A stretch of 56,487 bases of DNA from Candidatus Saccharimonadota bacterium (GTDB lineage: Bacteria > Patescibacteriota > Saccharimonadia > Saccharimonadales > UBA10212), in NCBI GenBank assembly GCA_016176605.1, contig JACOWW010000003.1, positions 94,138-150,624 on the forward strand, written 5' to 3'. The notes beneath the pieces are model-generated. The model was not told where the DNA came from and made no database searches. It was given only the letters and a program-made list of their open reading frames with translations. Of the stretch, positions 13,330 through 56,200 are shown piece after piece; position 1 is the first letter of the stretch, and every line of letters begins with the position of its first letter. A program made the translations under genes and the position numbers.

Positions 13330-13995
13330 TTACAGCTGGCCCCGGTTTTGACCGGATTTTTTGGCTATACAGCGAAGGATATTTGATCTCTGTCCGTTAT
13401 ATTCTTCTTCAACCATGTCTAGATAGCCAATATCAAACATGCCTTCAAGCAATTCTCTTGTATATGGAATTGAGAATAGGTGTCTGACACGCCCTTTTTC
13501 AGAAACAAAGACATCTTTTTCCACTTCATCCCCTTTGCCATAATGAAAATCATCAACTGACTTACAGGCAAAGGCGAATATTCCATCTGGCTTGAGCACT
13601 TTTGCAACCTCTTTCACAATCTTGCGCGTTTTATCGTGGCTATAGTAATGAAGTGATAGATTGACATAAACGACATCGAAACTCTCCGGTTTATACGGCA
13701 AAGGCTTGCGCATATCCAGCACAGAAAATTTGACATCTGTGTTAGCAAAATGCCGTTTATTTTGTTCGACCACCACATCAGACACATCGGTCGCTATAAC
13801 TTTGTGGCCCTTGTCTGTAAAAAAGACTGCATCTCCACCAACCCCGCAGCCGAGCTCTAAGATTTTCGATCTTTTTGAAAGATACGGTTCGGCTAGCTTT
13901 GCCAATGGGTTAGGAGAGTGGCGCAACTTCTCATGGTCGCCTTCGGCATGTTTTCTGTCCCATATCGGCTTTTGATCAGGTATCTTGCGACTCAC
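13330..13995 (-). CDS. SAM-dependent methyltransferase, class I
   Basis: Motif I is ILELGCGVGGDAVFF and motif II region is FSVLDMRKPLPYKPESFDVV; post-motif LSLHYYSHDKTRKIVKEV and VLKPDGIFAF follow the UbiE/Methyltransf_11-like pattern. The substrate is not evident. The GTG start at 13995 overlaps the polA stop (GTGA), with no canonical Shine-Dalgarno. Ends SGQNRGQL, loosely like the other tails in this operon. Confidence 0.82.
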   Translation of the reverse strand: MSRKIPDQKPIWDRKHAEGDHEKLRHSPNPLAKLAEPYLSKRSKILELGCGVGGDAVFFTDKGHKVIATDVSDVVVEQNKRHFANTDVKFSVLDMRKPLPYKPESFDVVYVNLSLHYYSHDKTRKIVKEVAKVLKPDGIFAFACKSVDDFHYGKGDEVEKDVFVSEKGRVRHLFSIPYTRELLEGMFDIGYLDMVEEEYNGQRSNILRCIAKKSGQNRGQL

Positions 13996-16712
13996 AATTC
14001 GCCCCAATTCTTTCCTTGACTAATATCAACTTTGAGTTTTACAGGTAGTTTGTAGATGTTTTCCATCGTGGATTTGAGGATTTCGCCGACTTTTTTGGCG
14101 TTTTCTTTTCGGCATTCAATAAGTAGCGAGTCATGGATTTGCAGTAACATAGCCGGCTTTGCCGGAGTAATTAGTTTTTTACTAGTTGCTAATTTCTGTT
14201 TTCTAGTTTCTCCAAAATGGGAGTCAAACTCATTTTGGACTTTGACCATGGCCATCTTCATCAGATCCGCCGCTGTGCCTTGCAGTGGATGGTTGATGGC
14301 CGCGCGGTAGGCCGCTTCGCGCACCGCGAAGTTGGAGGATTTTACATCCGGCGTCGGCCGGCGTCGCCCAAGCAATGTTTCTACGTAACCCTGCTCTTCC
14401 GCCTGCTTCCGGAGTGAATCAATATACTTTTTAAGGGCCGGCCTAAGTTGGAAATACTTGGTGATAAATTCTTTGCTAGCGGCAAAATCCATGCCCGAGC
14501 TAACACTTAAACCATGCGGACCCAGACCGTACATAATGCCAAAGTTTACAGCTTTGGCGCTGTAGCGCTGGTCTTTGCTAACCTTATCCGCTGCAATGCC
14601 GTAAATCGCGGCGGCGGTTTCTACATGGATATCAGCGTCGCGGTTAAAAGCGTCTATCATACCCTTGTCGCCAGACAGCGCCGCCGCCAAGCGGATTTCG
14701 AACTGGCTGTAGTCGGCACTAACCAGCACGTTGCCCTTTTCGGCCACAAAAGCAGTACGGATATTTTTACCAAGTTCAGTCCGTATCGGTATGTTTTGCA
14801 AATTCGGGTCGCTGCTGGATAGCCGGCCGGTTTGGGCAATGGTTAGGTTAAAAGTGGTGTGCAGGCGGTTGTTTTCATCGACCATATCCGGCAGAGGATC
14901 GACATAAGTGTTTTTAAGTTTGATTGCTTCACGGTATTGGCTAATCAATTCGATAATTGGGTGCAAATCGCGCAGTTTTTCTAGCTCGCTGGCGGCTGTC
15001 GAGAGGCCGGTTTTACCTTTTTTAATCCCCTCACTTGGTAAGTTGAGTTTGGTAAACAGTACATCGGCCAGCTGTGAAGGTGAGCTGATATTAAATTCAT
15101 GGTCGGCATGGCCATAAATGTTTTGTTCGAGGTCGCTGATAGAATCTTCCAGTTGAATAGCAAACTTTTGCAGATATTTAACATCCAGCTTAATACCGCG
15201 GGTTTCCATAGCGGCTAGCACCGGAATTAGCGGCCATTCAATAGTAGAGGCTAGACGTTCGAGGTTAGACGTTCGAGCTAGCGCCATTTTTTGGGCTTCG
15301 TAAAGTTGACGGATAACGGCTATGAACTGCGCGCCATGGTCTAAAAAATCCTCTGTTGGTAAATCTTCAAACGGCAGGCCGTTGTAACCCAAGATCGTTT
15401 CAGCCAAGTCAGTCAGCGACTGGGCACGAAGCAATGGATCGATCAAGAACGCGCCGACTAGAACGTCGTGGGCAACAATCACGCCTTCGATGCCCAAGTT
15501 TTTGAGAAGTTTAATATCACTTTTGATGTCATAGCCGATAAAAGAGGTTACAGGTGACAGGTTACGGGTTACAGTATCACGGACTTTTTGAGGGTCAAGT
15601 TTGGTAAGGTCGAGGGTGTAGGATAGTTCGGCTGTGCCAATGTGCAAGACTTGCGGGTCGGCTCCTTGTTTTCCGGCCGCCCGCGAATGAACAAAGATCG
15701 GTTGCTCCCCTGTGTGAAAGGTCCGTCCTTTCACACTAAAGCTTATTTTGTTTAGTTTTTCACCCGAATCAACTAATACATGTTTTTGTAATTTTAATGC
15801 CTTACTTGCGCCTACAGCTGGTGTGCTTACTCTCATGTTTTCGGGCAAATTATTTAATAGACTTCGAAATTCCAGCTCCTGTAGTAAATTGCGGAGGTGT
15901 GAGGTGTCTAATTTGGAGCTGTCCATGGCTGGCAGATCCAATTTAACCGGCGCATCTGTCCACAGTTGGGCAATTTTTTTGCTCAAATAGGCCGACTTTT
16001 TACCAGCTTCCAATTTTTTGCGTAAAGTTTCTTTAATCACCGGCAAATGTTTATAAACTCCATCCAGAGTTTTGTATTGCTGCAGTAGCTGGGTGGCAGT
16101 TTTTTCGCCGACGCCGGGCACGCCCGGAATATTATCCGAACTATCGCCTTTTAGGGCCTTAAGGTCCAAAAATTGTTCCGGCCTAAGACCGTATTTGGCG
16201 GTAAAACTTTCCGGATGGAATTCTTCAATATTGGAAAAGCCGCGTTTTAGGGCGTAAACTTTGACGTGACCGTTTATTAGCTGTAGGGCGTCCAAATCAG
16301 AGGTAATTAGCAAGGTTTCGATATTTTTTTTACGGGCCTGGACGGCTAGGGCGCCCATAATATCGTCGGCTTCATAATCGTCCAACTCGTATAGCGGCCA
16401 ATGAAAAGCCTCCAAAAGCTCGTGCAAAATAGGGATTTGAGTATAAAAATCCGGCGGCGCCGGTTTACGGCCGGCTTTGTACTGCGGGTACATAGCCACA
16501 CGCTTTCGGATGTTGGTTTTGGGCTTGTCCCACGCTACTGCCACGTAATCGGGCTTGAGCTTTTTGATGAGTTCCAGGGCCATGGCCGCGAAACCATACA
16601 CCCCGCCGGTCGGCACGCCTTCTTTAGTCGATAGGTTCGGCATGGCGTAATAACCTCTGTAAAAAACAGATTTTCCATCTATAATTGCCAGCTTTTTCCT
16701 CGCTTCAGCCAT
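13992..16712 (-). CDS. polA: DNA polymerase I
   Basis: 906 residues. The 5' nuclease domain (1-~290) is intact: YRGYYAMPNLSTKEGVPTGG, DDYEADDIMGALA, ITSDLDALQL, GDSSDNIPGVPGVGEKTA. The 3'-5' exonuclease-like region (~300-470) has no DxE first motif, so proofreading is probably absent. The polymerase domain carries motif A DYSQFEIR (~669), motif B around NFGIMYG (~724) and motif C QIHDSLLIE (~860), where Asp is kept but the usual Glu is Ser. Four repeat-derived stretches are read in frame: 15712-15736 (V-K-G-R-T-F-H-T), 15547-15577, 15247-15281 and 14170-14212. TATAAT lies 9 nt before the ATG. Confidence 0.95.
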   Translation of the reverse strand: MAEARKKLAIIDGKSVFYRGYYAMPNLSTKEGVPTGGVYGFAAMALELIKKLKPDYVAVAWDKPKTNIRKRVAMYPQYKAGRKPAPPDFYTQIPILHELLEAFHWPLYELDDYEADDIMGALAVQARKKNIETLLITSDLDALQLINGHVKVYALKRGFSNIEEFHPESFTAKYGLRPEQFLDLKALKGDSSDNIPGVPGVGEKTATQLLQQYKTLDGVYKHLPVIKETLRKKLEAGKKSAYLSKKIAQLWTDAPVKLDLPAMDSSKLDTSHLRNLLQELEFRSLLNNLPENMRVSTPAVGASKALKLQKHVLVDSGEKLNKISFSVKGRTFHTGEQPIFVHSRAAGKQGADPQVLHIGTAELSYTLDLTKLDPQKVRDTVTRNLSPVTSFIGYDIKSDIKLLKNLGIEGVIVAHDVLVGAFLIDPLLRAQSLTDLAETILGYNGLPFEDLPTEDFLDHGAQFIAVIRQLYEAQKMALARTSNLERLASTIEWPLIPVLAAMETRGIKLDVKYLQKFAIQLEDSISDLEQNIYGHADHEFNISSPSQLADVLFTKLNLPSEGIKKGKTGLSTAASELEKLRDLHPIIELISQYREAIKLKNTYVDPLPDMVDENNRLHTTFNLTIAQTGRLSSSDPNLQNIPIRTELGKNIRTAFVAEKGNVLVSADYSQFEIRLAAALSGDKGMIDAFNRDADIHVETAAAIYGIAADKVSKDQRYSAKAVNFGIMYGLGPHGLSVSSGMDFAASKEFITKYFQLRPALKKYIDSLRKQAEEQGYVETLLGRRRPTPDVKSSNFAVREAAYRAAINHPLQGTAADLMKMAMVKVQNEFDSHFGETRKQKLATSKKLITPAKPAMLLQIHDSLLIECRKENAKKVGEILKSTMENIYKLPVKLKVDISQGKNWGEL
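15712..15736. repeat. In-frame palindrome in polA (VKGRTFHT element)
   Basis: GTGTGAAAGG-TCCGT-CCTTTCACAC, a 10-5-10 inverted repeat. On the coding strand it reads V-K-G-R-T-F-H-T. The same element, in the same frame and orientation, lies in tsaD at 49774-49796. It falls in the poorly conserved exonuclease-like region. Confidence 0.8.
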
Positions 16713-26916: not shown

Positions 26917-27486
26917 ATGAAGTTAATGATAATTTGGGGCAGTTCAAGGACCGGACGCAAAGGCGGTATAGTAACTGATTGGGTTAAAGGTGAAGCGACT
27001 AAAGATAGCCGTTTTGAAGTTGATTTTGTTGACCTAAAGGAGCTGAACCTGCCGTTTTTTGACGAGCCTAAAAGCCCATTTATGATGCAAGGGTTAAATG
27101 AATATAGTCATCCTGAAGGCAAGGCTTGGGCCGAGCGCGTACAGACTGCCGACGCCGTCATTATTATTACGCCAGAATATAATCATGCGCCGCCCGGCGT
27201 ACTCAAAAATGCTCTGGACTGGGTTGGCAAACCATGGGTTGATAAACCTGTAGGGTTAGTCAGTTATGGCGGCGCCGTCGGTGGCGCCAGAGCTGTGGAG
27301 AAATTGCGTTCAATAACCATTGAACTGGGGTTAATCAATGTCGCGACACCGCTCCACTTTCCTTATTTTGAAGAAGCTTTTGACGCCCAGGGCCAGCCAA
27401 AGCGGCTAGACTATTACCAAGCCAATCTCAAAAAAATGCTTGACGAAATCCTCCGCCTCAGAACAGCAATGAGCAAAGAGCAATGA
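26917..27486 (+). CDS. NADPH-dependent FMN reductase family protein
   Basis: 189 residues with the flavodoxin-like pattern: MIIWGSSRTGRKGG (phosphate loop), ADAVIIITPEYNHAPPGVLK, ALDWVGKPW, GLVSYGGAVGGARA. Reduces FMN or quinone/azo substrates with NADPH. AGGAG before the ATG; 9 nt after the ArsR frame. The C-terminal RTAMSKEQ is written in a 'gagcaat/gagcaaa' word repeat that continues downstream. Confidence 0.88.
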   Translation: MKLMIIWGSSRTGRKGGIVTDWVKGEATKDSRFEVDFVDLKELNLPFFDEPKSPFMMQGLNEYSHPEGKAWAERVQTADAVIIITPEYNHAPPGVLKNALDWVGKPWVDKPVGLVSYGGAVGGARAVEKLRSITIELGLINVATPLHFPYFEEAFDAQGQPKRLDYYQANLKKMLDEILRLRTAMSKEQ

Positions 27487-27531
27487 GCAAAAAGCATGCT
27501 GTTTTCTGTTCTTTGTTCTCTGTTCATTGAC

Positions 27532-28833: not shown

Positions 28834-28899
28834 CCCCGCTTTATTTCAGGGTGGAGCAGTCTGCAATCAGATTGCGGAACGTCCAGAAATTGTGCGGGG
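28834..28899. repeat. Palindrome with AGTCTGCAATCAGATT core, copy 1
   Basis: CCCCGC (28834-28839) pairs with GCGGGG (28894-28899); the core at 28858-28873 is the exact reverse complement of the 16-mer in copies at 29927-29942 and 30168-30183. Confidence 0.65.
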
Positions 28900-29027: not shown

Positions 29028-29732
29028 ATGTATCAAGACCTCGCTGAATATTACGATGAAATATATAGCTACAAAGATTATGCTACCGAAGCAGAAAAAG
29101 TTGTTTCGTTAATTAAAAACAATCTGAAAAGTGGCGGTAACAAGCTCCTGGATGTCGCATGCGGGACGGGTAAACATATCGAATATCTTAAGCAGCACTA
29201 CGATGTAACGGGTGTCGATATAAGCAATAAAATGCTTGGTTTAGCCAAAGTAAGACATCCCAATGTGCAATTCCACCAAGCCGATATGATAGAAATGGAG
29301 CTAGGGAGAGATTTTGATGTTTTGGTATGCCTATTCAGCTCAATATCCCACCTAAAGACTTATGAGAATCTAAGTAAAGCTCTAAAAAATTTCTCGAAGC
29401 ACCTGAAAAAGAGGGGCGTATTAATTATTGAGCCGTTTATAGAGCCAGGCAAATATATATCAGGTGGCCTACATGGGGATATGGTCAATAAACCTGATTT
29501 AAAAATTGCCCGGATGAATATAAGTGAGCGTAAAGAAAATCTAGCTATTTTAGATTTTCACTGGCTAATTGGCACGCCCAAAAGCATTAACTATTATCGT
29601 GACAGGCATGAAGTGGGTCTTTTTGATATAGAAAAATTTAAATCACTAATGACTGATGCCGGATTTGAGGCAACTTTTCTTAAAAACGGACTTCTAAAAG
29701 ATCGAGGATTATATCTCGGTTTGAAGAAATAA
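29028..29732 (+). CDS. SAM-dependent methyltransferase, amino-sugar N-methyltransferase-like
   Basis: 234 residues. LAEYYDEIYSYKDYATEAEK and LLDVACGTGKHIEYL (motif I), TGVDISNKMLGLA, CLFSSISHL resemble the DesVI/TylM1 type of class I methyltransferase. The substrate is not proven. TACAAT lies exactly 6 nt before the ATG, so probably leaderless. Confidence 0.82.
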   Translation: MYQDLAEYYDEIYSYKDYATEAEKVVSLIKNNLKSGGNKLLDVACGTGKHIEYLKQHYDVTGVDISNKMLGLAKVRHPNVQFHQADMIEMELGRDFDVLVCLFSSISHLKTYENLSKALKNFSKHLKKRGVLIIEPFIEPGKYISGGLHGDMVNKPDLKIARMNISERKENLAILDFHWLIGTPKSINYYRDRHEVGLFDIEKFKSLMTDAGFEATFLKNGLLKDRGLYLGLKK

Positions 29733-29822: not shown

Positions 29823-29906
29823 GCAACACTTTAATTTTAGCAAATTAACTCTTTATATTTTTTTATCCCACACTTTTTACGGAGCGTTTTTACTTTTTTA
29901 TCCCAC

Positions 29907-29960
29907 ACTTTTCCGCGGTATTCCATAATCTGATTGCAGACTACTCCATCCGGAAAAAGT
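29907..29960. repeat. Palindrome with AATCTGATTGCAGACT core, copy 2
   Basis: ACTTTTCCG (29907-29915) and CGGAAAAAGT (29951-29960) flank the 16-nt core at 29927-29942. The outer arms differ from copy 1, the core does not. Confidence 0.6.
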
Positions 29961-30119: not shown

Positions 30120-30300
30120 AAATGGTCAATGGTCAATGGTCCCCAGCACTAAATCTTGATGCTCCACAATCTGATTGCAGACTGCTTTGCTCAGGATTTA
30201 GTGCGGGGCAGGCAATGGTCAATGAATGCATAAATGGTCAATGTTCTCATGCATTGATTATTGTTCATTGTTCATTGTTCATTGCGACTCCTGAAGGAGG
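30120..30300. repeat. Repeat-rich leader of the ABC operon with palindrome copy 3
   Basis: 'aatggtc' and 'ttcattg' word arrays flank a palindrome at 30141-30208 (CCCCAGCACTAAATC / GATTTAGTGCGGGG, core at 30168-30183). Further upstream (29961-30119), CGGTC/GGCCG followed by TTTTTT at 30060-30096 may be a terminator or attenuator. No ORF of note in 29823-30306. Confidence 0.55.
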
Positions 30301-31182: not shown

Positions 31183-31284
31183 GCAATAAGCAATTTATTA
31201 ATGCATTGGGGCATTGTTGTATTGACCATTCATTGTTCATTGATCATTGTTCATTGATCATTGCGGCTCCGGAAGGAGGCGCGC
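31183..31284 (+). repeat. Word-like repeat between the two ABC genes
   Basis: Reiterated 'ttcattgatcattg' and 'gcaataagcaat' words, then GGAAGGAGG before the permease start. The same word and a matching 'gcgactcctgaaggagg' end lie before the ATPase gene, suggesting duplication of the whole leader. Confidence 0.6.
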
Positions 31285-32512: not shown

Positions 32513-32696
32513 GCCCCATCTTTTTTCGGACGCTGTCTCGCCGTGAGTAGCTGTTAGTCAAAGCCAAAGTTTGGCTGCAGAACTCCTCACCCCGACGGTA
32601 CCGTCGGGGCTCGTCTAACAACTGCAACCAGCCAAGCACATTTTGTTTTGACAACATCTAATCAGGACTCGTCAGATGCCCGAAAAAAGGTGGGGC
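32513..32696. other. 184-nt structured spacer element
   Basis: A 17-nt arm GCCCCATCTTTTTTCGG (32513-32529) pairs with CCGAAAAAAGGTGGGGC (32680-32696, one G-U). Inside are the palindrome CCCCGACGGTACCGTCGGGG (32590-32609), AGCCAAAGTTTGGCT and TGTTAG/CTAACA. It fills the space between convergent genes. May be a palindromic mobile element or a processed 3' structure. Confidence 0.55.
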
Positions 32697-33779: not shown

Positions 33780-34012
33780 TCAGTAATTAGTAAAAAGTAA
33801 CTGGTAATTAGTATAGCCGCAGTAAATGCTAGTTTCTAGTTGCTATTTTCTGCTTTTCCAGGGTGCCACCCTGGAATGTGGTTCTGTTTGCCATTAAACT
33901 TGTGCTTTTGAAGTTAAAAATGTAAATTGAGAATTGATAATTGTTAATTGATCATTCACAGAAAACTGTTAACTGATAACTGATAACTGCTCGCTCTAAG
34001 CGAGCACGGGGG
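33780..34012. repeat. Repeat- and hairpin-rich spacer upstream of the 34017 gene
   Basis: Words 'taattagtaaaaagtaactgg', palindrome CCAGGGTG-C-CACCCTGG region at 33858-33875, 'ctgataactg' words, and hairpin GCTCGCT-CTA-AGCGAGC just before the start. GGGGGTGG may serve as ribosome site. No ORF. Confidence 0.5.
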
Positions 34013-35127: not shown

Positions 35128-35239
35128 CCCGTTAGAACCTCACCCTTGGCTTATGGTTGTCTTTGATCGATAAAAATAAAACACAGCTCCCACACGAAAG
35201 TAGGTTGAGAATTGCAGGCTGAGGTCTAACGGGACTCAT
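35128..35239 (-). promoter_or_regulatory. PVR palindromic leader element D with 35-codon small ORF
   Basis: Arms CCCGTTAGAACCTCA (35128-35142) and TGAGGTCTAACGGG (35220-35233) pair over 14 bp with one bulge. The minus strand has an ATG at 35239 reading M-S-P-V-R-P-Q-P and stopping with TAA 4 nt before the ATG of the membrane gene. TATAAT lies 9 nt before this small ORF. Both starts read ATGAG. Longest internal region of the four copies. Confidence 0.7.
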
Positions 35240-35330
35240 AGTCCGCATATTATATGACGAACTTGCAATAAAATCAAGCCCTCTAACCTCTTATGCTTGC
35301 CTTTTCCGAAAAGTACATCAATATATAATC

Positions 35331-46485: not shown

Positions 46486-47982
46486 TTACTTCTTTAAGCT
46501 CTGACGTAGAGCTGCTTTGGTGATACCAATTTCGTCCCAGGGGTGTTCACCATCGGCCCGCTCAATCGTTTTTTCATGGCCTTTGCCCAGCAGCAAAACG
46601 GTATCACCTTTTTGGGCGCGCGAAAGGCTGAATTTAATCGCCTCCGTGCGGTCGTGGACTAAAAACAGGTCTTTGTCACGGACTTTGCCGGCTTTTTCCA
46701 CGCCAGCGGCAATAGAATCGAGAATTTCCACGCCCGGTGTATCACGATCGTCCTCCTCGGTTAAAACCACCTCGTCGGCATATTTACCAGCCAGCTCGCC
46801 CTGCACTGGCCGCTTGAGTTTGTCGCGCTGGCCGCCGGCCGAACCAAACATAACTATCAATTTCCCAGACCCGCGCATCGCCTTGCCCTGCCTGCCTGCA
46901 GAGCCGGCAGTACCGGCAGACTCTTGGCGCATTGCTGTGTCAGTAACGCTCTGTCGCTCGCTTACCGTACCATCTGCATGGCTCACTCGCTCCTCGCTAC
47001 TTCCTTGCACTGCATCCAAGTGCGAGGCTCTGGAACCTTTCATTACTTCTCTCAGGTCTTTGAACAATTTTTCGAAGCTGTCCGGGGTATGAGCGTAATC
47101 CACCACCACGCCAAAATCCTGGCCTTCGTCAATTGATGTCATGCGCCCCTCGACGCTGTCTAGCGCGGCAATGCCCTGCTCTATCTGCTTGGGCTCCAGA
47201 CCCAGTACCATGCCGACTCCTACCGCCGCCAAGGTGTTATAAACATTAAAACTGCCCGGCAAATTAGTCCTTACTTGCAAGGCTCGGCCTTGCAACAAGG
47301 CCGAGCCTTGCAAAGCCACTGTGAAATTGCTGCCTGATGGCGTCATTTTTATATCTTTTGCCCGCATGTCGCCCTTTTTTATTCCGTAAGTAATGGGTTT
47401 GGCAATATCAGAAATAAACAGTTCAGCACTTGGGTCCTCAGCATTGATAACCCCTGCTCGCAAGCCCTTTTTATTACGGTTTGCTATCTTGAAAAGCTGG
47501 CGTTTGGCGTCGCGGTAATTTTTGAACGTGTTGTGATAATCCAGGTGCTCGTGCGTCACATTGGTCATTACAGCTATTGAGTACGGCATGCCCCACACGC
47601 GGTTTTGGGCCAAGGCGTGGCTGGTTGTCTCCAGGACTAACCATTCAGCCCCTTCTCTCTTGAACCATTTCAGCCGCCTCATCAGTTCCGGCACAGTCAC
47701 ATTAGTCATGTGATGGATTTGCGGCCTGATGTTATTTCCTACCCCGTAGCCGACAGTCGTCATCAGCCCTACATTGTAGCCGGCCTCGACCATCATCCGA
47801 TGAATTAAAAAACAGGTTGAAGTTTTGCCGTTAGTGCCCGTAACACCGATAACTTTTAGTCCGCTGGCCGGAAAACCGTTCAAGGTATTAAAAAGCACTG
47901 CCTCACCCAAATGCCCGTATGGTTCAATTCTCCTAAAGAGTTTTTTAGGAATCAGCTTCTTGACTACCGTACGCAGGCCCAT
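46486..47982 (-). CDS. MurE-like Mur ligase
   Basis: 498 residues. P-loop VIGVTGTNGKTST, LETTSHAL, TNVTHEHLDYH and the Mur C-terminal domain (VDYAHTPDSFEKL, VMFGSAGGQRDKLKRP, VLLLGKGHE) identify a UDP-MurNAc-tripeptide synthetase relative. The N-terminal UDP-binding domain is reduced to ~40 residues. The DNPR specificity motif position reads TEEDDRDTPG, so the added amino acid is unclear. Two inserts: residues ~224-236 from an inverted repeat (47275-47313) and ~315-370 (Ser/Gly/Arg-rich). TAAAAT lies exactly 6 nt before the ATG. Confidence 0.85.
   Translation of the reverse strand: MGLRTVVKKLIPKKLFRRIEPYGHLGEAVLFNTLNGFPASGLKVIGVTGTNGKTSTCFLIHRMMVEAGYNVGLMTTVGYGVGNNIRPQIHHMTNVTVPELMRRLKWFKREGAEWLVLETTSHALAQNRVWGMPYSIAVMTNVTHEHLDYHNTFKNYRDAKRQLFKIANRNKKGLRAGVINAEDPSAELFISDIAKPITYGIKKGDMRAKDIKMTPSGSNFTVALQGSALLQGRALQVRTNLPGSFNVYNTLAAVGVGMVLGLEPKQIEQGIAALDSVEGRMTSIDEGQDFGVVVDYAHTPDSFEKLFKDLREVMKGSRASHLDAVQGSSEERVSHADGTVSERQSVTDTAMRQESAGTAGSAGRQGKAMRGSGKLIVMFGSAGGQRDKLKRPVQGELAGKYADEVVLTEEDDRDTPGVEILDSIAAGVEKAGKVRDKDLFLVHDRTEAIKFSLSRAQKGDTVLLLGKGHEKTIERADGEHPWDEIGITKAALRQSLKK
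47275..47313. repeat. In-frame 18-bp inverted repeat in the murE-like gene
   Basis: TTGCAAGGCTCGGCCTTG (47275-47292), 3-nt loop, perfect complement (47296-47313). Read as L-Q-G-S-A-L-L-Q-G-R-A-L-Q in the central domain. Confidence 0.85.
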
Positions 47983-49011: not shown

Positions 49012-50232
49012 GTGAAAGTCTTAGGAATAGAGACCTCTTGTGATGAAACTGCGGCGGCTGTAGTTGAAGATGGTTACAAATTACTCTCAAATGTTGTGGC
49101 CAGCTCGGTTGACCTGCACGCCGCCTACGGCGGCGTGGTGCCGGAAATCGCCGCCCGGTCGCACATCGAAAGCATCCTGCCAGTAATAGACCAAGCATTA
49201 ATAGATGCTTTCGCAGAAAATAGCAATCAGAAATTAGAAAATAGCAAAAAGACAAAGCTAATTCCCAATTCCCAGTTGCTAATTCCTCAATCTGACGACA
49301 TATGGTCGCAGATTGATGCCATTGCCGTAACTCAAGGCCCCGGTCTTATCGGCAGTCTGCTGATAGGTGTCCTGACCGCTCGGACGTTAGCTATAGCTAA
49401 GCAAAAACCCTTGTACGCTATCAACCACCTCGAAGCACATGTCTATGCCGCCTTCCTCACTTCGTTCGGAAATGAGCAAAAAGCAAAAAGCAAAAAGCAA
49501 AAAACATTAGAAATAAACTATTTATTCCCGAAAAAACAACCTGAATTTCCTCTGTTAGCTCTAATTATTTCCGGTGGTCATACCCAAATTGTGCTCTTCA
49601 ATAATCACTTTGATTACAAAATGCTGGGCCAAACAATGGATGACGCGGTTGGTGAAGCTTATGATAAAGTAGCCAAAATGCTAGGACTATCCTACCCCGG
49701 CGGCCCTTCTATCGCCAAAACGGCAAAAAAAGGTAATGCGTACTCTTTCAATTTTCCCAAAGCCAAATTCGATGTGAAAGGACGGACCTTTCACACTAAT
49801 GCTTATCCATTTAGTTTTTCCGGCTTAAAAACAGCCGTTTTAAGGGCCGCTCAAGATGTGACTGGCCATGATTACACCTTCCCTTCTACAAAACTGCCAG
49901 AAGCCTTAAATAAAGCCCAGAAAGCTGATATCGCCGCTAGTTTCCAGCGCACAGTTGTTGAAACCTTAGTAGATGCACTAAAAAAGGCCGAAGACGAATT
50001 CCAGCCCAAGTCTATCGTTATCGCCGGCGGCGTTGCTGCTAATCAAGAACTTAGAAAAGTGGCTTCCGAACAGCTCTCTAGCAAAGTTATTTATCCTGAT
50101 ATCAAACTTTGCACAGATAACGCCGCCATGGTAGCTACCCTTGGCTGCTTCAAAGCTAAATATAAACAGCCTAAAGCCAACTCTTATTCTCTAGAGGTAG
50201 CCCCAAGCCTCAAAATGCTTACCTCTCACTAA
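49012..50232 (+). CDS. tsaD: tRNA N6-threonylcarbamoyladenosine synthase subunit TsaD
   Basis: 406 residues, GTG start. GIETSCDETAAAVV, HAAYGGVVPEIAARSHIE, ISGGHTQIV, DDAVGEAYDKVAKMLGL, SGLKTAV and the final IVIAGGVAANQELRK are the ASKHA-fold motifs. Forms t6A37 with TsaB/TsaC/TsaE. Longer than the usual ~340 because of three in-frame repeat stretches: residues ~66-92 (49207-49285), ~154-167 (49471-49510) and the VKGRTFHT palindrome (49774-49796). TACAAT lies exactly 6 nt before the GTG. Confidence 0.95.
   Translation: MKVLGIETSCDETAAAVVEDGYKLLSNVVASSVDLHAAYGGVVPEIAARSHIESILPVIDQALIDAFAENSNQKLENSKKTKLIPNSQLLIPQSDDIWSQIDAIAVTQGPGLIGSLLIGVLTARTLAIAKQKPLYAINHLEAHVYAAFLTSFGNEQKAKSKKQKTLEINYLFPKKQPEFPLLALIISGGHTQIVLFNNHFDYKMLGQTMDDAVGEAYDKVAKMLGLSYPGGPSIAKTAKKGNAYSFNFPKAKFDVKGRTFHTNAYPFSFSGLKTAVLRAAQDVTGHDYTFPSTKLPEALNKAQKADIAASFQRTVVETLVDALKKAEDEFQPKSIVIAGGVAANQELRKVASEQLSSKVIYPDIKLCTDNAAMVATLGCFKAKYKQPKANSYSLEVAPSLKMLTSH
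49774..49796. repeat. In-frame palindrome in tsaD (VKGRTFHT element)
   Basis: GTGAAAGG-ACGGA-CCTTTCAC then AC. Same peptide and frame as the polA copy at 15712-15736. Sits between two conserved blocks of the second ASKHA half. Confidence 0.8.
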
Positions 50233-50655: not shown

Positions 50656-50679
50656 TTGTTTACTGTATACTTGACCTCG

Positions 50680-53373
50680 ATGGGATTACCGAAGATTTAT
50701 GAGGCCTCTAAATACGAATCTGGTATCTATAAACTGTGGGAAAAGAGCCGGGTATTTATCGCCGACCCTAATAGTTCTAAACCGCACTTTTCGATGGCTA
50801 TGCCGCCGCCCAACGAAACAGGGACGCTGCACGTTGGCCATGCGCTTTTTTTGACACTACAAGACATCATTGCCCGTCATGAACGCCAAAGGGGCAAAGA
50901 CGTATTGTGGCTGCCCGGAACAGATCACGCTGCCCTAGCCACCAACGCCATCATCGAAAAGAAACTGGCAGAGCAGGGGACCGATAAACACACCATAGGA
51001 CGAGAAGAGTTTATCCGCCAGGTTAAGGTGTTTGTCGGTAATAGCCGCGACACTATAAACTCCCAAATACGGGCCATAGGTGCCAGCTGTGACTGGAGCA
51101 GGGGGCGTTACACCTTAGACGATGCTCTCAACCGCCTCGTCAACGAAACCTTTGTAAAAATGTACAATGACGGGCTGATTTACAGGGGTCATCGCATCGT
51201 AAACTGGGATCCGAATCTAGAAACTACCGTATCTGACGACGAGGTGGTCTATAAAGAACAGAAAGCGCCCTTTTACACCTTACAGTACGGTCCTTTTAAA
51301 ATCGGTACGGCCCGTCCAGAGACTAAATTCGGCGACAAATACGTGGTGATGCACCCCGATGATAAGCGCTATGTGAGGTACATGCACGGCGAGACATTTG
51401 AAGCTGATTGGATAAACGGCAAAGTGACAGCCACCATTATCAAGGACGAAGCCGTCGATCCCTCTTTCGGAACAGGGGTCATGACCATTACCCCGTGGCA
51501 CGACCGCACTGACTTTGAGATTGCTGAAAGGCACGGACTAGAGAAGGAACAGATCATTGGCTTTGATGGGCGTCTGCTGCCAATTGCCCATGAATTCGCC
51601 GGACAGACAATTGATGAAGCACGCCCCAAAATTGTCAAGAAACTACGCCACAAAGGTTTGTTGATCAAGGAGGAAGAATATACCCATAATGTGGCCCTAA
51701 ATGATCGCGGTAAAGGTGTTATTGAGCCGCAAATCAAACTGCAGTGGTTCGTTGATGTTAACCGGCCGGCTGTTGAGTGGAAAGGCCAGCTGCGTTCCCT
51801 GAAGGAAGTTATGCGCGCCGTTATCGAGGACGGTGATATTCAGATTGTGCCCAAGCGCTTTGAGAAAATTTATTACCACTGGATTGATAACTTGCGCGAC
51901 TGGTGCATCAGCCGCCAAATCTGGTGGGGACACCGCGTGCCTGTATGGTACAGGCACGCAAAGATCAAAAATCAAAGATCAAAGATCAAAAATGAGGAGA
52001 CATATGTTGGGGTGGTGCCTCCGGAAGAGCAGGGGTGGGAACAGGATCCAGATACGCTTGACACCTGGTTTTCTTCGGCGCTTTGGACCTGGAGCACGTT
52101 GGTAGACCAAGACTTGGCAAAGGATTATTCCCTGTCTCTGGAAGACTTGTTGGCCAAAAGTTTGGACTACAGAACCTACCATCCAACAGATGTTATGGAG
52201 ACTGGTTGGGACATCCTCTTCTTTTGGGTAGCGCGCATGATTTTGGCTACCACTTACGTCACCGGCGAAGTGCCGTTTAAGACTGTTTACTTACACGGTT
52301 TGGTGCGCACCGAGCATGGCAAAAAGATGAGCAAAAGTGATCCGGACAGCATTGTTGACCCAATGGAAGTCATCCCGCAATATGGCACTGATGCTTTGCG
52401 CTTGGCGCTGGTGGCTGGCACTTCGGCAGGCGCTGATCAGCGGCTAGGGAAGGCCAAAATCGTGGCTAATCGTAACTTTGCTAACAAGCTTTGGAACATC
52501 GCCCGCTACATTGACGACCTACGGGTACGACCCGTAGAGGGCGAAGAAAACAACAGAGGTAGAAGAAGTCTACGGGTCGTACCCGTAGGTCGAGAGATGA
52601 TGCCAAAATCAGTTGCGGATCATTGGATACTTAACAAGTTAAGTATTTCTACAGCTGTTATTAACAAAGCTCTGGACAGCTTCCGTTTTAGTGAAGCATA
52701 TGAACTTTTGTACCACTTTGTCTGGGACGATTTTGCCGACTGGTATGTGGAAGCCAGCAAGGTAGAACCGAATGTGGGCATGTTGAACCACGTGCTGGAA
52801 AGCACGCTCAAATTAGCCCACCCGTTCGCGCCGTTTATTACCGAAACCATCTGGCAGAATATGGGCAAAAAGAGCTTGCTGGCAGCGGAACTCTGGCCCG
52901 AAATCACCAATGCCGACAAAGCTCAGGCGCGGCAATTTGAGGAACTTAAAAAAATCATTACGGAAGCCAGGCAAATTTCCGTCAACGTTGGTGTTAGCAA
53001 GCCGTGGTTATTCAATAAAAACTCTAATCTGATAGAGCAGAATAAAGCACTGATTGAACGTTTAGGGCGTTTAGGAGGTGTTGAAACTAGTGCAAAACTA
53101 GGCACAGGAGTGCAACTTCACAGCTCTAAAACTCCTGCATGGCTCGCAATTGATATTAAGGATCTCAAAAGACATTCTAAGAAGTTAGAAGAGCAGGTGA
53201 GTAATCAGGAAAGCCTGATAAAGATGCTGGAGGGCAGGCTGGCTAACAAAGCTTACGTCGCCCGCGCCCCTAAGAAGCTCGTCGAAGAAACCAAATTCCA
53301 ATTGGCCGAAGAGAAGTTCAGACTTGAGACATTGAACTCCGAGCTAAAAACCTTCGAAAAATCCCTAACTTAG
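50680..53373 (+). CDS. valS: Valyl-tRNA synthetase
   Basis: 897 residues from the ATG at 50680; TATACT lies 8 nt upstream, which would leave a 1-2 nt leader, so I prefer this start to 50656. HIGH region PPNETGTLHVGHALFLT, editing domain with GTARPETKFGDKYVVMHPDD, WWGHRVPVWY, KMSKS as GKKMSKSDPDSI, and a C-terminal coiled coil (KKLEEQVSNQESLIKMLEGR). Two in-frame inserts: residues ~427-438 ('gatcaaa' words, 51959-51993) and ~613-637 (inverted repeat 52516-52591). Confidence 0.96.
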   Translation: MGLPKIYEASKYESGIYKLWEKSRVFIADPNSSKPHFSMAMPPPNETGTLHVGHALFLTLQDIIARHERQRGKDVLWLPGTDHAALATNAIIEKKLAEQGTDKHTIGREEFIRQVKVFVGNSRDTINSQIRAIGASCDWSRGRYTLDDALNRLVNETFVKMYNDGLIYRGHRIVNWDPNLETTVSDDEVVYKEQKAPFYTLQYGPFKIGTARPETKFGDKYVVMHPDDKRYVRYMHGETFEADWINGKVTATIIKDEAVDPSFGTGVMTITPWHDRTDFEIAERHGLEKEQIIGFDGRLLPIAHEFAGQTIDEARPKIVKKLRHKGLLIKEEEYTHNVALNDRGKGVIEPQIKLQWFVDVNRPAVEWKGQLRSLKEVMRAVIEDGDIQIVPKRFEKIYYHWIDNLRDWCISRQIWWGHRVPVWYRHAKIKNQRSKIKNEETYVGVVPPEEQGWEQDPDTLDTWFSSALWTWSTLVDQDLAKDYSLSLEDLLAKSLDYRTYHPTDVMETGWDILFFWVARMILATTYVTGEVPFKTVYLHGLVRTEHGKKMSKSDPDSIVDPMEVIPQYGTDALRLALVAGTSAGADQRLGKAKIVANRNFANKLWNIARYIDDLRVRPVEGEENNRGRRSLRVVPVGREMMPKSVADHWILNKLSISTAVINKALDSFRFSEAYELLYHFVWDDFADWYVEASKVEPNVGMLNHVLESTLKLAHPFAPFITETIWQNMGKKSLLAAELWPEITNADKAQARQFEELKKIITEARQISVNVGVSKPWLFNKNSNLIEQNKALIERLGRLGGVETSAKLGTGVQLHSSKTPAWLAIDIKDLKRHSKKLEEQVSNQESLIKMLEGRLANKAYVARAPKKLVEETKFQLAEEKFRLETLNSELKTFEKSLT
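52516..52591. repeat. In-frame 22-bp inverted repeat in valS
   Basis: A 22-nt arm at 52516-52537 (GACCTACGGGTACGACCC...) and its perfect complement at 52570-52591, loop 32 nt. Each arm is itself palindromic (CTACGGGT/ACCCGTAG). Adds about 25 residues rich in Arg and Val after RYIDD. Confidence 0.85.
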
Positions 53374-54504: not shown

Positions 54505-54581
54505 CCCGATTAGAAATCCAATCCACTGCCAGTGGCTTGGCAGATTTTAAATAAAATCTTATTTCTAACGGGATTTACCAT
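54505..54581 (-). promoter_or_regulatory. PVR palindromic leader element C with 23-codon small ORF
   Basis: Arms CCCGATTAGAAAT (54505-54517) and ATTTCTAACGGG (54561-54572), one bulged A; inner hairpins CCAA...TTGG with CCACT/AGTGG, and GATTTT-AAAT-AAAATC. A small ORF from ATG 54581 reads M-V-N-P-V-R-N-K-I-L-F-K-I-C and ends with TAA 5 nt before the ATG of the XRE-HAD gene. No Shine-Dalgarno. Confidence 0.75.
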
Positions 54582-55155: not shown

Positions 55156-55237
55156 CCCGTTAGAGCTCCGCTTTACTGCCGGCAGTAAAGCGGCAGATTT
55201 TATCTTTGATAAAATACTTAGCTCTAACGGGACTCAT
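55156..55237 (-). promoter_or_regulatory. PVR palindromic leader element B with 25-codon small ORF
   Basis: Perfect 12-bp arms CCCGTTAGAGCT (55156-55167) and AGCTCTAACGGG (55220-55231); inner palindrome CCGCTTTACTGCC with its complement; ATTTTATC-TTT-GATAAAAT hairpin. A small ORF from ATG 55237 reads M-S-P-V-R-A-K-Y-F-I-K-D-K-I-C-R-F and stops with TAA 4 nt before the HIT ATG. Its start overlaps the stop of the upstream membrane gene (ATGA). Confidence 0.8.
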
Positions 55238-55404
55238 AGTATTAGACCAAGAATTATAAACGAAAATATAAAGATAACTACACCGGTTATGGCGACCGCT
55301 TTCAGCGACCTAACGGTATTATTGCCGCTGGTTTGTTGAAAATGAGAATAAAGCCACGTGCCGGCCCCGACCGCGAACATCAAACTAACCAAACCCTTCC
55401 CCAT
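55234..55404 (-). CDS. 56-residue two-helix membrane protein
   Basis: Begins MGKGLVSLMFAVGAGTWLYS and ends in the helix AVAITGVVIFIFSFIILGLI then L. Two predicted membrane helices joined by a short polar loop with Lys/Arg. Family not recognised. ATG at 55404; its TGA overlaps the ATG of the element B small ORF, giving a chain membrane gene - small ORF - HIT. Confidence 0.65.
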   Translation of the reverse strand: MGKGLVSLMFAVGAGTWLYSHFQQTSGNNTVRSLKAVAITGVVIFIFSFIILGLIL

Positions 55405-56095: not shown

Positions 56096-56175
56096 CCCGT
56101 TAGAAGTCCGATTCTGCCGAAGGCAAATCGGCAGATTTTATCTTTGATAAAATACTTACTTCTAACGGGATTCAC
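56096..56175 (-). promoter_or_regulatory. PVR palindromic leader element A with 27-codon small ORF
   Basis: Perfect 12-bp arms CCCGTTAGAAGT (56096-56107) and ACTTCTAACGGG (56158-56169); inner hairpins CCGATT...AATCGG and ATTTTATC-TTT-GATAAAAT. A small ORF from GTG 56175 reads V/M-N-P-V-R-S-K-Y-F-I-K-D-K-I-C-R-F and ends in a TGA overlapping the next ATG (ATGA). TATACT (56182-56187) lies exactly 6 nt before the GTG, so the small ORF would be the leaderless first cistron. Confidence 0.8.
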
Positions 56176-56200
56176 AGCTGAAGTATACACCAGAGTGGGG

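Follow-up and report, generated by a model that had tools for sequence, protein, structure and literature searches.

A 23-nt palindrome carried in frame by unrelated essential genes of this Saccharibacteria genome is, in all likelihood, a short untagged REP-type element that is recognised and spread by a Saccharibacteria RAYT/TnpA_REP transposase (HUH-Y1) and whose copies are renewed at permissive sites. In the window, meaning the whole stretch of 56,487 nucleotides that was analysed, the palindrome TGTGAAAGG-ACGGA-CCTTTCACA was found in frame in polA and tsaD:

13992..16712, minus strand: polA, DNA polymerase I, 906 aa, host gene (NF004397 908 bits, PF00476 460 bits)
15713..15735, minus strand: REP-like palindrome TGTGAAAGGACGGACCTTTCACA in polA, encoding (S)VKGRTFHT in frame 0; a 24-bp insertion relative to genomes G001 and G003
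49012..50232, plus strand: tsaD, tRNA threonylcarbamoyltransferase, 406 aa, host gene (TIGR03723 374 bits)
49773..49795, plus strand: REP-like palindrome TGTGAAAGGACGGACCTTTCACA in tsaD, encoding VKGRTFHT in frame 0; a 24-bp insertion relative to G001 and G003

Both copies had been described in a sequence-only reading. The polA copy, GTGTGAAAGGTCCGTCCTTTCACAC, was recovered at 15712-15736 on the minus strand and the tsaD copy, ATGTGAAAGGACGGACCTTTCACAC, at 49772-49796, where 49774-49796 had been given. The shared frame and peptide were confirmed, with both genes reading GTG AAA GGA CGG ACC TTT CAC AC(A/T), or VKGRTFHT, in gene sense. The shared orientation held for this pair but not as a rule: the frame-0 copies of the genome comprised four that encode VKGRTFHx and three that encode VKGPSFHx, and the suggested check for orientation bias showed none in this genome.

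The core GTGAAAGG-N5-CCTTTCAC occurred twice in the window, where shuffles expect no copy, and eight times as an identical 21-mer in the whole assembly of the window's genome, G000 (728,033 bases, seven contigs). Chance origin of the repeat was ruled out by the shuffles, by a reversed control pattern, which had no match in the G000 assembly, and by base composition, which predicts 0.00016 genome copies. All eight copies were intragenic, in polA, tsaD, ligA, mpg (3-methyladenine glycosylase-like), trm (TRM11-like methyltransferase), rsmA and twice in uvrA, where they form a 78-bp inverted doublet. Host genes besides polA, tsaD, valS and murE were named from translations, without profile search. 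As in Rickettsia palindromic elements (RPEs), the palindrome thus lies in frame within unrelated ORFs: seven of the eight copies are read in frame 0, and the rsmA copy is read in frame 1, giving CERSVLSR.

Homologues from G001 and G002 (same genus label) and G003 (same family) were compared to distinguish native from inserted codons. The tsaD and polA genes of G000 exceed the G001 and G003 versions by eight codons, and these extra codons are the palindrome, a net gain of exactly 24 bp in each gene. This insert type was present in four of 14 tsaD sequences of the family (G000, G002, G006 and G011); G007 tsaD holds a longer, unrelated insert. A peptide of the VKGRTFHT type was absent from TsaD of ten other family members, and VKGRTFHT itself was absent from polA of G001 and G003 as well as from three aligned TsaD sequences of solved structure. 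A conserved native peptide, which had been named in advance as the finding that would speak against an insertion, was ruled out by these empty sites, and the insertion claim stands because relatives and solved TsaD sequences lack the insert. Nor does the element qualify as a MITE derived from a DDE insertion sequence. Such non-autonomous elements span 70-300 bp, end in inverted repeats and duplicate their target site, whereas the present one has 23 nt and its 24-bp gain leaves no space for a duplication of more than about 1 nt. Exact TTCCAGGG palindromes, which belong to another family, were observed in prfB (G000 C7:89460-89480) and tatD (C6:47613-47633). Their homologues align without gaps, so TTCCAGGG seems to have overwritten native codons there instead of adding to them. 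The palindromes of other families in prfB and tatD thus show no net insertion, which counts against the RAYT-REP explanation.

The anatomy of the element was taken from 75 copies, originating from nine genomes and one further locus. Conservation extends over 23 nt, TGTGANAGG-N5-CCTNTCACA; the element was set at this length because bases further out carry no information. As single-stranded DNA it folds into a 9-bp hairpin with a 5-nt loop. Neither a GTAG/GTGG nor a CGTC tag was present, positions outside the outermost stem pair holding at most about 0.15 bit across the 75 copies. A tetranucleotide guide beside the hairpin was likewise not found, and this counts against the RAYT-REP explanation. 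A larger element with the tail ACTAATGCTTAT was rejected: the 8-mer ACTAATGC occurred at only five of 150 outward flanks, three of which are orthologous tsaD sites, and was therefore left out of the element.

Read from its GTG, the 21-nt core encodes V-x-G-x-(T/S)-x-H in frame 0, is open in frame 1 in nearly all versions and begins with TGA in frame 2. The palindromes of some species have a frame-0 stop in one orientation (GGT TAG, GGA TAA), and their in-gene copies use the opposite one; in G002, G006 and G057, orientation is dictated by stop codons in one strand. By the author's reading of the copies, credible genes held 33 copies in frame 0, three in frame 1 and none in frame 2. Counted as distinct gene sites, frame 0 exceeded frame 1 by 16:2 (P=0.0013), an excess beyond stop avoidance. 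The frame-1 peptide (C/R-E-R-x-x-L-S) may be less well tolerated. The strong preference for frame 0 although frame 1 is just as open (33:3 by copies, 16:2 by distinct sites) and the retention of V-x-G-x-(T/S)-x-H across species could also be read as selection for VKGRTFHT as a functional peptide, such as a motif for targeting or interaction, to which the DNA palindrome would be secondary. This is very improbable, as flipped copies encode VKGPSFH, the rsmA copies of two species are read in frame 1, some copies lie between genes, every species has its own version and the residues are dictated by the GTG...CAC stem.

Relatives of the window's genome carry an HUH-Y1 transposase of the TnpA_REP type. 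In G057 and G026, three palindromes of the same type, with another loop, lie around a gene of about 210 residues that matches Y1_Tnp. The relatives' transposase matched PF01797 (E 6e-10), and NF047646 REP_Tyr_transpos was the sole NCBIfam model matching every RAYT tested, at 34-53 bits and thus under its 80-bit cut-off. HUH (HxH) and YxHxN motifs were present in 22 of 22 RAYTs examined. A PDB search with a RAYT gave no match. Relatives of the G057 transposase were found in 78 of 393 genomes of the order; RAYTs occurred in seven of ten palindrome-positive genomes versus 71 of 383 others (P=0.0007), and G002, G006, G011, G026, G057 and G225 hold repeat and RAYT together.

For 30 fetched RAYT loci, the same arm was sought within 150 nt on each side of the gene. 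Matched arms on both sides were present at 16 of the 30 loci versus none of 1000 random control segments; the test failed at the other 14, which counts against the RAYT-REP explanation. RAYT protein identity covaried with arm similarity among 22 RAYTs (Mantel r=0.43, reached in 0 of 10,000 permutations), with the limit that arms were assigned by eye from listed hairpins. After omission of one member of the closest RAYT pair, the value was reached in 3 of 10,000 permutations. The RAYTs nearest to that of G057 accompany TGTGAAAGG, TGTGATAGG and TGTGAGAGG palindromes. Because of the two-sided flanking and this covariation, the element was assigned to RAYT-cognate REPs. The initial likening to Rickettsia RPEs is supported, with a qualification: a repeated palindrome does lie in frame in unrelated essential genes, but it groups with RAYT-associated REPs and not with RPEs.

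The window's own genome, 89% complete, had no PF01797 or RAYT match, and the RAYT of the exact ACGGA-loop version was consequently not seen, a further point against the RAYT-REP explanation. The G011 RAYT is accompanied by the same ACGGA loop with the arm GAGAGG. The missing RAYT of G000 would suit an RPE-type selfish palindrome with some unexplained mode of spread, for which RAYT genes are merely frequent targets; RPEs likewise spread without a known transposase. Such an element is nevertheless improbable, since it would not be expected to covary in its arm with the RAYT protein or to match on both sides of more than half of the RAYT loci and in none of the control segments. Spread by phages was considered and rejected, the pattern being present in only one IMG/VR contig.

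Further palindrome families were present in the window:

33856..33876, no strand assigned: fourth family, intergenic copy TTCCAGGGTGCCACCCTGGAA, identical to the palindrome flanking the G001 RAYT (locus L070)
47275..47313, minus strand: third family, two adjoining palindromes, TTGCAAGGCTCGGCCTTG/TTGCAAGGCCGAGCCTTGCAA, read in frame within a murE-type ligase (VALQGSALLQGRALQV)
50656..53373, plus strand: valS, valine--tRNA ligase, 905 aa, host gene (NF004349 874 bits)
52518..52589, plus strand: second family, inverted doublet (REPIN-like) in frame in valS, CCTACGGGTACGACCCGTAGA (52518-52538) and TCTACGGGTCGTACCCGTAGG (52569-52589)

With polA and tsaD, four housekeeping genes in 56 kb therefore carry in-frame palindromes of three families. 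The valS doublet belongs to the CTACGGGTACGACCCGTAG family and folds into one long hairpin; in related genomes it is shorter or missing, and a sister family was found at RAYT locus L074. The murE doublet is TTGCAAGGCTCGGCCTTGCAA, and its 21-mer recurs unchanged as the palindrome next to the G008 RAYT (L062). G001, the source of L070, belongs to the same genus as the window's genome. Inverted doublets were present in uvrA, valS, ileS, murE and on contig C18 of G011, and same-orientation doublets in G057. The rsmA gene of G000 (273 codons) contains palindromes of three families, TTACAGGG, TTCCAAGG and GTGAAAGG, at C5:806, 1168 and 1325 (L253, L003).

Several other repeats were observed. The palindrome TACTTRACNNGTYAAGTA lies at 52628-52645 in the window (G000 C3:146765) and at about 17 places in G000. 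It occurred in 15 of 16 family genomes with 2-28 copies, genic and intergenic, and its reversed control gave zero. Its valS copy is conserved at the DNA level from G000 to G003, without insertion; a conserved DNA-binding protein seems to recognise this motif. Palindrome CCCCGACGGTACCGTCGGGG stands in a longer shared context (GAACTCCTC...GCTCGTC) at 32591-32608 and, elsewhere in G000, four to five more times; it may be a terminator or belong to a further repeat family. Perfect palindromes of 32-40 bp, for example TGTAACAGAAATCAGCGATCGCTGATTTCTGTTACA, were located between genes at four positions of G000, C3:21199, C3:41818, C5:29459 and C6:50085. Long diverged inverted repeats around GCAGTCTGCAATCAGATTG (28844-28898, 29902-29956, 30142-30186) border the stretch with ORF 29028-29732 and a tRNA gene. 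The repeat TTTGATAAAATACTTA..TCTAACGGGAYTCAYAG, possibly a promoter or leader element, lies in the same direction close to ORFs at 54546-54578, 55176-55239, 56114-56177 and 35219-35242. Degenerate arrays of 7-nt units (AGCAAAA, TGTTCAC and similar) were genic as well as intergenic, at 1973-2006, 2383-2421, 27465-27529, 30252-30284, 31229-31263 and 51959-51990, and in tsaD at 49212-49290 and 49471-49505. The two tsaD arrays are in frame and give, for example, NSNQKLENSKK; such stretches also occur in mnmA of G000 and G009.

Insertion sites were shared among genera, and orthologous sites carry each species' own palindrome. G000, G002, G006 and G011 have the tsaD insert at one and the same position. 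Inserts in ligA and trm were shared by G000, G002 and G006, those in argS by G002, G006 and G011, and those in mnmA by G002, G006, G011, G056 and G085. The polA insert was present in G000, G002 (decayed) and G011, the mpg insert in G000 and G011, and the rsmA insert in G000 and G002, both times in the unusual frame. Palindrome identity was 0.948 within a genome, 0.808 at the same site across genomes and 0.799 at different sites across genomes, so that shared sites showed no excess similarity across genomes (permutation 0.25). At one prmC site, unrelated families were found, TTCCAGGG in G000 and GTGAAAGG in G085, and at the valS site, G000 has CTACGGG, G002 a sequence diverged from it, and G003 TTACAGGG. 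A two-gene tree grouped G000, G002 and G006 (0.97) and placed G011 beside G014, which lacks the tsaD insert. For the clade of G000, G002 and G006, this topology fits an ancestral insertion that would have been followed by palindrome replacement; to account for G011, one would have to assume that this tsaD site was hit a second time or that the insert was lost several times elsewhere. A comparable case is recB of two Xanthomonas species, where different REPs occupy about one site (PMC3733652). Same-site turnover and the untagged Saccharibacteria version of REPs appear to be new.

Shared sites across species, together with the perfect dyad and the genome-wide sequence agreement, could alternatively reflect immobile sites to which a host protein binds, kept by selection and coevolving with that protein, and in TACTTRACNNGTYAAGTA these genomes do possess a palindromic motif that is clearly not inserted. 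Such sites would hardly produce clean 24-bp gains at variable loops, nor identical palindromes on both sides of transposase genes; the loops as well as the arms are species-specific, and both orientations and doublets occur. We regard the binding-site explanation as improbable.

The preferred explanation, a REP-type palindrome mobilised by RAYTs, would operate as follows. By analogy with known RAYTs, the transposase would act on the single-stranded hairpin and spread copies genome-wide. A palindrome entering a gene would add 24 bp, so that the reading frame would be kept, and the copy would survive only where the read-through frame is free of stops and a loop accepts eight residues (VKGRTFHT or flipped VKGPSFHx). 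The presence of species-own palindromes at shared sites indicates that copies are renewed, which may occur either through a new palindrome taking the place of the old one or through permissive sites receiving insertions more than once. Given eight identical copies and no detectable RAYT, the G000 copies were probably left behind by a transposase that is lost, missing or foreign. It is conceivable, though on balance doubtful, that Saccharibacteria RAYTs replace old palindromes in place. After fixation of a palindrome in a permissive loop of a housekeeping protein, the codon position would then stay available for docking, and its peptide would change with every new RAYT and palindrome of the lineage, leading to concerted peptide evolution across unrelated essential proteins.

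Protein-coding palindromes of the RPE kind, whose spread is unexplained, are hereby tied to a specific transposase family, and the link is made in a phylum outside the cited REP papers. As the same protein sites differ in their palindrome among genera, these genomes offer a natural experiment on site choice and renewal by RAYTs, and equally on the way in which essential proteins gain peptides from mobile DNA without being disrupted. The idea of intragenic REPs is not new in itself, since they were described in several phyla in 2013 (PMC3733652). Those REPs belong to GTAG and CGTC families, and many lie in DNA repair genes; uvrA, DNA ligase, PolI and tRNA synthetases are included (PMC3733652). 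RPE-4 and RPE-6 were assigned to the CGTC repeats, without transposase association (PMC3733652), and RPEs have been reviewed (PMC10969869). TnpA_REP classes, some with untagged REP-like structures, and in-frame REPs within tnpA_REP genes have also been described (PMC6006769); Saccharibacteria and candidate phyla are unmentioned there. REP/RAYT work on these groups was not found in the literature searched, which includes few subscription papers.

The GTAG REP/RAYT systems (REPtrons, REPINs) resemble the present one in their short hairpins, in a HUH-Y1 transposase per family flanked by copies, in the occurrence of singles and, at some loci though not in the same-orientation pairs of G057, inverted doublets, and in intragenic copies in DNA-repair and tRNA-related genes (PMC3733652, PMC6006769). 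In contrast to GTAG REPs, the Saccharibacteria palindromes have no GTAG/GTGG guide and reach a copy number of eight, where GTAG REPs often exceed 100; copies in the window's genome are mostly intragenic and a RAYT is absent there, Saccharibacteria RAYTs score under the NF047646 cut-off, and turnover at the same site occurs among genera. Rickettsia RPEs, including the CGTC-tagged RPE-4 and RPE-6, share the in-frame palindromes in unrelated housekeeping genes, but classical RPEs are about 150 bp compared with 23 nt here, and the CGTC tag is missing here (PMC10969869, PMC3733652). The present palindromes are also transposase-linked, whereas CGTC repeats are not, and differ in phylum and sequence. 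TnpA_REP subclass 2.6 and class 3 are alike in that RAYT-like genes are flanked by hairpins without GT[AG]G, with copies elsewhere in the genome (PMC6006769).
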